From the IMG/VR virus record IMGVR_UViG_3300047585_000202, positions 1 to 39,191 of that record: a DNA stretch of 39,191 nucleotides, one strand, 5' to 3'. The translations under genes were made by a program, and so were the position numbers. Every line of letters begins with the position of its first letter. The stretch's first letter is position 1. The notes under the pieces were generated by a model. It was not told where the DNA came from. It saw only the letters and a list, made by a program, of their open reading frames with translations, and did no database searches. The DNA comes from a virus. This document shows positions 33,895 through 36,947 of the stretch, one piece after another.

Positions 33895-34131
33895 ATGCTA
33901 TTCCTTATTCACCCCGTCTTAGATCTTATTACTGACCCCAGGGAAACCACCGTAACGATGAAAACAGCCATTATAGATATTTATACTGACCTGGCCAACG
34001 CAGTCCACCCTGAAGGTTGCCGATCTCGGGATGGGAAGTATCGTTGCAACTGTTGGATCCGCAGCTGCAAGGAAAGCCTGGATGAAAAAATGGACGCCCT
34101 CCAAGAAATCCTAGAAAGAGTTGCCGTATGA
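33895..34131 (+). CDS. Small Cys-containing early protein (78 aa)
   Basis: GAAAGGA precedes the ATG at 33895; an internal Met at residue 22 is an alternative start. Residues 42-58 have C-R-S-R-D-G-K-Y-R-C-N-C-W-I-R-S-C, a possible metal site, followed by an acidic helix. Overlaps the next gene by 4 bases. Confidence 0.65.
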   Translation: MLFLIHPVLDLITDPRETTVTMKTAIIDIYTDLANAVHPEGCRSRDGKYRCNCWIRSCKESLDEKMDALQEILERVAV

Positions 34132-34421
34132 ATGCCTTCCAACAAGTATCTCTTCACCCCTTCATTCACACACGTCCCCTTAACGAGGAACTGGCCGAAT
34201 TAAGAGAGGATAATACCCAACTGAAATCTCATTTGATGATTAAGGACCATAAGCTCCGAATATTAGCCGAGCAACTCAAAATCCGGGGCCATGAGAATGG
34301 TTGCAGTATTTGGATGAAACAGTTACCTCGGTATAAAACAACCAAGCGTATTAACCAGGAAGCAATTTGTAACTGTAGCTATACCAAGGCAGACGCTGCT
34401 TTGAAGGAATTGGAATGTTAA
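34128..34421 (+). CDS. Coiled-coil early protein (97 aa)
   Basis: Overlaps the upstream gene (ATGA) and the methyltransferase start. Residues 18-52 form a heptad-like helix (L-N-E-E-L-A-E-L-R-E-D-N-T-Q-L); the C-terminal half has Cys at C-N-C. Function unknown; stable coupling to the methyltransferase suggests a partner. Confidence 0.65.
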   Translation: MNAFQQVSLHPFIHTRPLNEELAELREDNTQLKSHLMIKDHKLRILAEQLKIRGHENGCSIWMKQLPRYKTTKRINQEAICNCSYTKADAALKELEC

Positions 34422-35140
34422 ATGGGTTGGATTTATTTAGCGGAATCGGAGGACTTACCTTGGCCTTGGAGCCCTGGGTGTTGCCACGAGCCTACTGTGA
34501 AATTGACCGATACGCTCAAGCAGTGTTACTCTCTCGGCAATTTAATCAAGAATTGCCAACCGCCCCAATCTGGGATGATGTGCGAACATTATCAAGTAGA
34601 CTTATACCCTGGCCAATCGATATCATCACAGGTGGGTTCCCATGCCAGGATATCAGCACTTGCGGCCCTAAAAAAGGGTTGGAAGGAAAGCGAAGCGGAC
34701 TATTTTGGCAGATCATACGCCTCACTGGCGATCTTTTACCGTCTTTCGTCTTCCTGGAGAACGTGCCAGCAATCACTTCTTACGGAGGACCCGAAGTGGT
34801 CGGGGCCTTTACCTCGTTGGGGTATGAGTGTCGCTGGTGTACTTTATCCAATGCCTCGATTGGAGGAGGCCATATTCGAGAGAGGTGGTTTATATTGGCC
34901 CACCTTGACAGCACGGGATTACCGAAATTCGAAGGGATCCTCGAGAGGGAAAACTTCCGGAAAAGATCTAATCGCCTACCTAAGCCATTGCCACCAGAAA
35001 AACTCGATCCGACTCAAGCCGTCCTGGACAGAACAATACCTCGGTTTCCCCATCGGACACACCGAATTAGATGCCTGGGTAATTCCGTGGTTCCGCTCCA
35101 GGCTCGGACGGCGTTTAAAATCCTTGGAGGTATAAATTAA
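34415..35140 (+). CDS. dcm: DNA (cytosine-5) methyltransferase (241 aa)
   Basis: All key motifs are visible: motif I D-L-F-S-G-I-G-G (residues 6-13), E29 of motif II, D-D-V-R-T-L (54-59), catalytic G-G-F-P-C-Q-D (73-79, Cys77), E-N-V (115-117), H-I-R-E-R-W-F-I-L-A (153-162), and a short target region before motif X, L-G-N-S-V-V-P (221-227). It methylates C5 of cytosine in a sequence that cannot be deduced here; protection against host restriction is the usual role. AAGGA precedes ATG 34415. Almost its whole length is also read in a second frame (34422-35135). Confidence 0.93.
   Translation: MLNGLDLFSGIGGLTLALEPWVLPRAYCEIDRYAQAVLLSRQFNQELPTAPIWDDVRTLSSRLIPWPIDIITGGFPCQDISTCGPKKGLEGKRSGLFWQIIRLTGDLLPSFVFLENVPAITSYGGPEVVGAFTSLGYECRWCTLSNASIGGGHIRERWFILAHLDSTGLPKFEGILERENFRKRSNRLPKPLPPEKLDPTQAVLDRTIPRFPHRTHRIRCLGNSVVPLQARTAFKILGGIN
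34422..35135 (+). CDS. Second long ORF overprinted on the methyltransferase (237 aa)
   Basis: Open over 237 codons in the +1 frame relative to the methyltransferase. It reads like a real, recurrent phage protein: M-G-W-I-Y-L-A-E-S-E-D, S-W-R-T-C-Q-Q-S-L-L (residues 111-120), P-R-W-G-M, L-Y-W-P-T-L-T-A-R-D-Y (157-167) and L-G-F-P-I-G-H-T-E-L (207-216). I recall this pattern in proteins next to or fused with phage methyltransferases; this is memory, not a search. D-D-V-R-T-L of the MTase lies over S-G-M-M-C-E-H here, and motif VIII over E-R-G-G-L-Y-W-P. A ribosome site is shared with 34415, about 14 bases away, so translation may be weak. Confidence 0.6.
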   Translation: MGWIYLAESEDLPWPWSPGCCHEPTVKLTDTLKQCYSLGNLIKNCQPPQSGMMCEHYQVDLYPGQSISSQVGSHARISALAALKKGWKESEADYFGRSYASLAIFYRLSSSWRTCQQSLLTEDPKWSGPLPRWGMSVAGVLYPMPRLEEAIFERGGLYWPTLTARDYRNSKGSSRGKTSGKDLIAYLSHCHQKNSIRLKPSWTEQYLGFPIGHTELDAWVIPWFRSRLGRRLKSLEV

Positions 35141-36260: not shown

Positions 36261-36947
36261 ATGCGCCTCCTAGGCTATACCCGTGTCTCGACCGAGGGGC
36301 AGGCTGAAAACACCAGCCTGGAAGAACAGAAGCGTAAAATCAATGGCTACTGTGATTTACATGGACCTAAGCTGGTTAAAGTGTATACCGATATTGAATC
36401 TGGCTACTCTATGTCTAAAAGACCGCAATTTCAACGTGCTAAAGAGGCGCTTATTGAGCGTAAAGTGGACGGTATCATTGCGATTAAACTAGATAGGATT
36501 GCCCGAAACACCTTTGATTTGCTGGATTTCCACCGGAATTATTTAGAGCCTAATAGGAAGGTCCTGGTGCTGATTGATACCGACCTGGACACTTCTACCC
36601 CCACAGGTAAAATGATGCTCACTCAGCTCTCGTCATTCGCCGAATTTGAGCGTGATCAGATACGGGAAAGAACCCAAGGTGGAAGAAAGGCAAAAGCATC
36701 CAAAGGAGGTTATGCTTATGGCTCCCCGCCGTATGGCTGGGAAAGTATTAACAAAGTCCTGGTTCCGGTTCCCCACCAGCAACACATCATCCAACTCCTG
36801 CGACGCCACCGCCGAAGTGGCAAGAGTCATACCGAGCTGGCCGACTGGTTGAATGACATGGGAGAGAAAACCAAGCGCGGGAAGTGGTGGAATGCTAGCC
36901 AGGTTCAGCGGGTTTTGGAGCGGAAGGCAGCGGCATCCAGTGGGTAG
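36261..36947 (+). CDS. Small serine recombinase / resolvase (228 aa)
   Basis: N-terminal resolvase domain: L-G-Y-T-R-V-S-T-E-G-Q with nucleophile Ser10, D-x-x-S-G residues, L-D-R-I-A-R-N near residue 77, and E-F-E-R-D-Q-I-R-E-R-T near 128. Then a short Recombinase-like domain (G-S-P-P-Y-G-W, D-W-L-N-D-M-G). Smaller than large serine integrases (usually 450+), it may act as integrase or as a resolvase/invertase. The end overlaps the convergent gene at 36895 by 53 bases. Confidence 0.9.
   Translation: MRLLGYTRVSTEGQAENTSLEEQKRKINGYCDLHGPKLVKVYTDIESGYSMSKRPQFQRAKEALIERKVDGIIAIKLDRIARNTFDLLDFHRNYLEPNRKVLVLIDTDLDTSTPTGKMMLTQLSSFAEFERDQIRERTQGGRKAKASKGGYAYGSPPYGWESINKVLVPVPHQQHIIQLLRRHRRSGKSHTELADWLNDMGEKTKRGKWWNASQVQRVLERKAAASSG

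Follow-up and report, generated by a model that had tools for sequence, protein, structure and literature searches.

Two open reading frames on the + strand share about 710 bases of the window (the whole stretch of 39,191 nucleotides analyzed here, positions 1 to 39,191 of IMG/VR virus record IMGVR_UViG_3300047585_000202), raising the question of whether both frames encode proteins and, if so, what the second protein contributes. One frame, alpha, carries motifs of a C5 cytosine methyltransferase, and the other, beta, lies in the +1 frame relative to it (Table 1). As judged by sequence analysis of homologous loci, both frames are conserved and under joint selection, the methyltransferase motifs are split between them and the beta start is conserved. 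We consider it very probable that the product of the locus is a C5 cytosine DNA methyltransferase of two different subunits, a heterodimer that would be translated from two frames of the same DNA.

Table 1. Features of the alpha/beta locus, in window coordinates.
Feature	Position	Strand	Basis
Alpha, 241 aa: probable C5 cytosine methyltransferase subunit with motifs I-VIII and X but lacking IX	34415..35140	+	PF00145, phrog_363, profile-profile match
Beta: 237 aa, +1 frame relative to alpha, predicted small-domain/motif IX protein	34422..35135	+	phrog_1008, +1 frame in homologous loci, selection tests
Shine-Dalgarno-like GAAGGAA	34403..34409	+	Read from sequence; spacing ~5 nt to the alpha ATG and ~12 nt to the beta ATG
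Double start ATGTTAAATG: alpha ATG 34415, beta ATG 34422	34415..34424	+	Sequence; beta start codon conserved in family
Alpha motif I (DLFSGIGG)	34430..34453	+	Alpha-family alignment
Alpha motif IV (GFPCQ, catalytic Cys)	34634..34648	+	Alpha-family alignment; F-P-C invariant
Beta motif SWRTCQ	34752..34769	+	Third-position constraint, z up to 13.9 (partly ascertained, as one scan searched with a pattern that included some of the motif)
Alpha motif VI (ENV), overlaps beta SWRTCQ	34757..34765	+	Alpha-family alignment
Beta PRWG (residues 131-134), conserved PxxG motif	34812..34823	+	Third-base constraint; in no search pattern
Alpha motif VIII region (HIRERW)	34871..34888	+	Alpha-family alignment
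Beta motif WPTLTARDY (family motif W/L-PTPTA-D)	34896..34922	+	z up to 12.6
Beta motif IX-like segment LKPSWTEQYLGFPIGHTEL	35013..35069	+	hhalign to motif IX of single-chain C5 methyltransferases, P=0.032; z up to 20
Alpha motif X (LGNSVVPLQA), alpha frame, directly after beta motif IX	35075..35104	+	Alpha-family alignment, profile-profile match

Analysis of alpha revealed an incomplete enzyme. The preliminary description had taken this frame for a complete methyltransferase, but motif IX is absent and the match to PF00145 in Pfam (E=1.4e-32) covers profile positions 2-169 of 324 only. Alpha also matched phrog_363 (E=3.7e-49), and motif I, PCQ, ENV and motif X, which are invariant columns in the alpha-family alignment, are present in that order. 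A single-chain enzyme has motif IX and the recognition domain between motifs VIII and X, a spacing that in alpha amounts to only ~42 codons. Beta, whose patterns the preliminary description linked to phage proteins associated with methyltransferases, matched phrog_1008, annotated 'DNA methyltransferase' (E=1.1e-6, with relatives down to 7e-27). No model in Pfam or NCBIfam matched beta, and single-sequence and profile searches of the PDB with the beta sequence gave no meaningful match. AlphaFold2 models of full-length beta and of beta residues 60-237 (built with 54 and 117 homologs) reached pLDDT values of 59 and 65 and pTM values of 0.24 and 0.28; PDB fold searches with these low-confidence models found no match, and no confident fold is predicted for beta alone.

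Homologs of beta were found in the same relative frame in a broad range of viral, bacterial and archaeal loci, the observation that had been named as support for a translated second frame. A tblastn search of phages with beta returned four records, and in the three unrelated phages examined among them, Microcystis phage Mwe-JY08, Salmonella phage S9-5 and Stenotrophomonas phage SOVA965, the beta match overlapped a C5 methyltransferase ORF in its +1 frame. With a better-placed family member as query, 98 phage records and seven plasmids were matched, the plasmids including those of Leptospira, Acinetobacter, Nostoc and an archaeon. Four sets of loci were compiled (80 viral loci selected by beta, nine found by the window alpha alone, 80 selected by the alpha alignment, and 80 bacterial or archaeal loci selected by beta), and four profiles, one each for alpha I-VIII, alpha X, beta SWRT-PTPTA and beta motif IX, served to score their frames. 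The beta blocks were in the +1 frame and motif X in frame 0 for 79 of 84 methyltransferase hits in the beta-selected viral set, all nine loci found by alpha alone, 72 of 81 hits in the viral set selected by the alpha alignment, and 78 of 81 hits in bacterial and archaeal genomes, a set found by beta whose frame statistics are consequently ascertained. The 9/9 and 72/81 sets were chosen without beta and are less biased, but the alpha query itself came from the family. Overall, of ~240 viral, bacterial and archaeal loci, nearly all had the +1 arrangement. Among 200 sampled Pseudomonadota genomes, 22 qualified by E-value, of which ~15 were convincing on inspection.

Comparison of these loci with synonymous-codon shuffles of alpha addressed whether the second frame only mirrors the conserved methyltransferase protein as a passive shadow, or is open by chance. 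The +1 frame of the window contains one stop, the terminal one, compared to a mean of 9.1 in shuffles, and 0 of 500 shuffles were as open; the earlier claim that both frames are open over about 710 bases was thus confirmed, and the openness exceeds chance. Across 92 alphas, 248 stops were found in the +1 frame where 620 were expected, with the other frames near expectation, and from alpha codon 96 on the depletion was stronger still, with 38 observed compared to 311 expected in alpha-selected viral loci and 43 compared to 228 in genome loci. In contrast, stop avoidance was absent from 14 single-chain methyltransferases used as a control (163 stops in the +1 frame, 168 expected), and stops in the +2 frame were near expectation. 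Similarity to the beta family is partly a shadow, in that shuffled alphas still scored about 60 bits against a beta profile whose training set excluded the window and its close relatives (60.7±11.9, maximum 107.8), but the window beta scored 179.6 bits, and 13 held-out loci scored 159-218 bits, compared to shuffled means of 61-92 and at most 138.5.

Third bases of alpha codons pointed in the same direction. Relative to the codon usage of each locus, they deviated with |z|>4 in 47% of 224 columns, compared to 0% in a simulated null, and the deviation peaked at beta motifs, including ones in no search pattern. For example, the alpha third base at the glycine of the PxxG motif was G in 89 of 91 cases (expected 16; z=20), and that at the proline was C in 88 of 92 (expected 25). 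The three patterns singled out from the window alone, SWRTCQ, WPTLTARDY and LGFPIGHTEL, proved to be conserved family motifs. The stop and third-base tests refute the shadow explanation, to which, together with chance, we assign next to no probability.

Selection on the two frames varied along the gene. Position 3 to position 1 differences, counted in 42 disjoint close pairs, had a ratio of 2.97 for alpha codons 1-90, 1.36 from codon 96 to motif VIII, 0.68 between motifs VIII and X, and 1.45 in motif X. Because alpha position 1 is the wobble base of beta, the DNA between motifs VIII and X appears to evolve mainly as a beta gene. A gradient of this kind, flattened by saturation, was also seen for the window compared to its nearest relatives (46-62% identity; ratios 1.57, 1.33, 0.96 and 1.01). 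Alpha codons 1-90 showed weak signs of beta selection only, with little selection of its own on the first ~90 residues of beta. The third-base and pair tests both detected reduced synonymous variation in the methyltransferase frame, which the preliminary description had named as support. The two refuting conditions set there for sequence data, missing homologs and normal synonymous variation, did not hold. With its excess openness, constrained synonymous sites in the first frame and conserved relative frame, the locus has the sequence characteristics of an overlapping gene pair.

The location of this selection also bears on whether a programmed +1 frameshift could fuse alpha I-VIII to the TRD-IX part of beta as one chain. 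Although the frame geometry permits a shift after motif VIII, beta is selected upstream of any such shift, over alpha VI-VIII, as seen from the pair ratio and the PxxG glycine in that region; the fused product would be without motif X; and beta start codons are themselves under selection. We therefore rejected a programmed frameshift, which appears very unlikely.

Profile-profile alignment with single-chain methyltransferases suggested what beta contributes. The alpha family covers only template columns 22-196 (motifs I-VIII) and 349-375 (motif X), and the best match of beta, short at 22 columns (P=0.032), was to template columns 325-346, corresponding to motif IX, and lands in the gap left by alpha. 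The aligned consensus sequences are gLNPxWVEWLMGFPIGWT for beta and RxLTPREcARLqGFPDxxx for the single-chain enzymes. In 15 genomes, single-chain full-length PF00145 proteins occurred without beta and short forms (Pfam ~1-170) with beta in the +1 frame. These results argue against an independent role for beta, such as anti-restriction or regulation, as a separate protein overprinted on a complete methyltransferase, since alpha has no motif IX in its chain, beta has a motif-IX-like segment, and beta accompanied only short methyltransferases in the genomes sampled. The SWRT-to-PTPTA half of beta does look overprinted, having no recognized homology to single-chain methyltransferases and overlapping alpha VI-VIII, but overall we consider a separate protein improbable. 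Most likely, as far as these alignments indicate, beta is the second part of one enzyme rather than a new function overprinted on a methyltransferase. Of the overprinting origin proposed earlier, a separate family arising over a complete methyltransferase is improbable, beta supplying the motif-IX-like segment; strict overprinting may still apply to the N-terminal half of beta and to the alpha VIII-X linker.

Variants of the arrangement are consistent with two parts of one enzyme. In loci L035 and L180 and in Mycobacterium phage Firecracker gp6/gp5 (L005, 1101-2046), where the overlap is only 209 bases, motifs IX and X are both in the beta frame; motif X following motif IX in that frame (gp5 in Firecracker) is natural for a split methyltransferase and argues further against a separate protein. 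Conversely, Gordonia phage Neville gp75 (L008, 1293-2153) has motifs IX and X in the alpha frame, and its +1 frame retains SWKT, TWPRMG and LFPTPRSADA without motif IX; gp75 is judged to carry the overlap in rearranged form. Motifs IX and X can apparently occupy either frame, as expected of parts of one enzyme.

Other loci departed from the common arrangement in different ways. An in-frame stop interrupts alpha in L083 (3231-3233) and L276 (~1612-1614), and the frame changes within the gene in L087 and L246; these interruptions may reflect decay, assembly errors or recoding. L091 (5001-5966), L097 and L099 contain repeated WPTPxA.D modules in the beta variable region, with alpha lengthening in step, as if recognition modules had been duplicated.

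Analysis of the start region suggested how both products could be initiated. The +1 frame was open from the codon overlapping the codon at the alpha start (usually its second) in 148 of 226 loci, and 120 of these had ATG or GTG exactly there (typically ATGAATG), compared to only 5 of the 78 loci in which the +1 frame was not open. The Asn codon at the double start was AAT rather than AAC by 108:2, in contrast to a background of 4488:5522. By these counts the beta ATG just after the alpha start is itself selected. The window fits this rule, with alpha ATG 34415, beta ATG 34422 and, between them, the stop (TAA, 34419-34421) of an upstream ORF (34128-34421), and conservation of the double start thus supports the full-length 237-residue reading of beta. 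The shared, distant ribosome site that had been a source of doubt is real: the beta ATG lies 7 nt downstream of that of alpha, and its spacing of ~12 nt from the Shine-Dalgarno-like site is longer than usual. Two-frame initiation from neighbouring start codons has a demonstrated precedent in E. coli (PMC9841429).

In other loci an in-frame stop close upstream requires an internal beta start, some of which have a good Shine-Dalgarno sequence. Purely internal starts, with a Shine-Dalgarno sequence and start ~22, 31 or 45 codons before SWRT, were rejected as a general explanation, being true for part of the family only: enrichment of these sites was modest (z of 4.8, 3.8 and 1.4), and most loci use the ATG beside the alpha start.

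We propose that alpha would form the catalytic large domain, comprising motifs I-VIII and X with SAM binding, the PCQ cysteine and ENV, and that beta would provide the missing part of the small domain, including motif IX, and very probably also the region for target recognition, located between PTPTA and motif IX. One ribosome site with neighbouring start codons would yield the two proteins from one message, and alpha and beta together would methylate the DNA of the phage itself; a plausible role is that of an orphan enzyme shielding this DNA from host restriction. Translation of both frames, complex formation, methylation, its target and the biological role are what we infer from the conserved features described above.

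A precedent for such a division exists in M.EcoHK31I, with an alpha of 309 aa and a beta of 176 aa encoded in another frame inside alpha, and M.EaeI is similar. This kind of arrangement has reportedly been known since the 1995 paper on M.EcoHK31I. The larger M.EcoHK31I polypeptide contains motifs I-VIII and X and the smaller motif IX (PMC3404938), the same split as in the window, which resembles this YGGCCR enzyme in motif arrangement. Unlike the window locus as we interpret it, M.EcoHK31I belongs to a restriction-modification system, and its predicted recognition domain was assigned to alpha; in the window, where alpha has only ~42 codons between motifs VIII and X, the recognition domain is better sought in the variable region of beta. 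In M.AquI (CYCGRG), catalytic motifs I-VIII are on one polypeptide and motif IX on another (PMC3404938), but motif X accompanies IX on the small subunit, whereas the window has X in the alpha frame and IX in the beta frame; L035, L180 and Firecracker gp6/gp5 look AquI-like and the window does not. In Mycobacterium phage ShiLan, a second frame within methylase gene gp65 is an out-of-frame HNH homing endonuclease insertion (PMC11855218), which is in another methylase and, in contrast to beta, is not a methyltransferase subunit. A second ShiLan methylase gene, gp70 (L261, 6350-6839), distinct from gp65, is of the overlapping alpha/beta type. PHROGs lists phrog_1008 (beta) and phrog_363 (alpha) as two families, both 'DNA methyltransferase', with their shared DNA unmentioned. 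In the literature searched, no earlier account of the overlap in phages was found; the breadth, dual start and selection evidence appear to be new and the kind of arrangement already known.

Taken together, the comparisons make it likely, although with less assurance than the two-subunit reading of the window itself, that this dual-coding gene is ancient and very widespread, occurring in phages, bacteria and archaea alike. In this view two frames hold the large and the small domain of one enzyme, the two starts usually lie a few nucleotides apart, motifs IX and X switch frames by lineage, and beta goes mostly unannotated in the records inspected. To our knowledge, long same-strand overlaps with both products constrained are rare among cellular genes. 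Here, such an overlap can be studied across hundreds of sequences from three kinds of host, with products that are probably parts of one enzyme, and the double start, ATGAATG in many relatives, offers a model, open to testing, of how one ribosome site could serve initiation in two frames. Beta was missing from most annotations inspected, and the bacterial and plasmid records inspected had just one of the two frames annotated as a gene; many 'DNA cytosine methyltransferase' entries may therefore be half enzymes, inactive if cloned alone, and methylome assignments based on alpha alone could be wrong. In Stenotrophomonas phage SOVA965 (L003, 2685-3410 and 2887-3387), the gene annotated 'DNA-cytosine methyltransferase' is the beta frame, and the catalytic alpha ORF is unannotated.

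Finally, the window also encodes, at 36261-36947 (+), a serine recombinase (PF00239; phrog_95 positions 88-312 of 651) that ends early within the Recombinase domain, perhaps a temperate-phage integrase that has been truncated or frameshifted.
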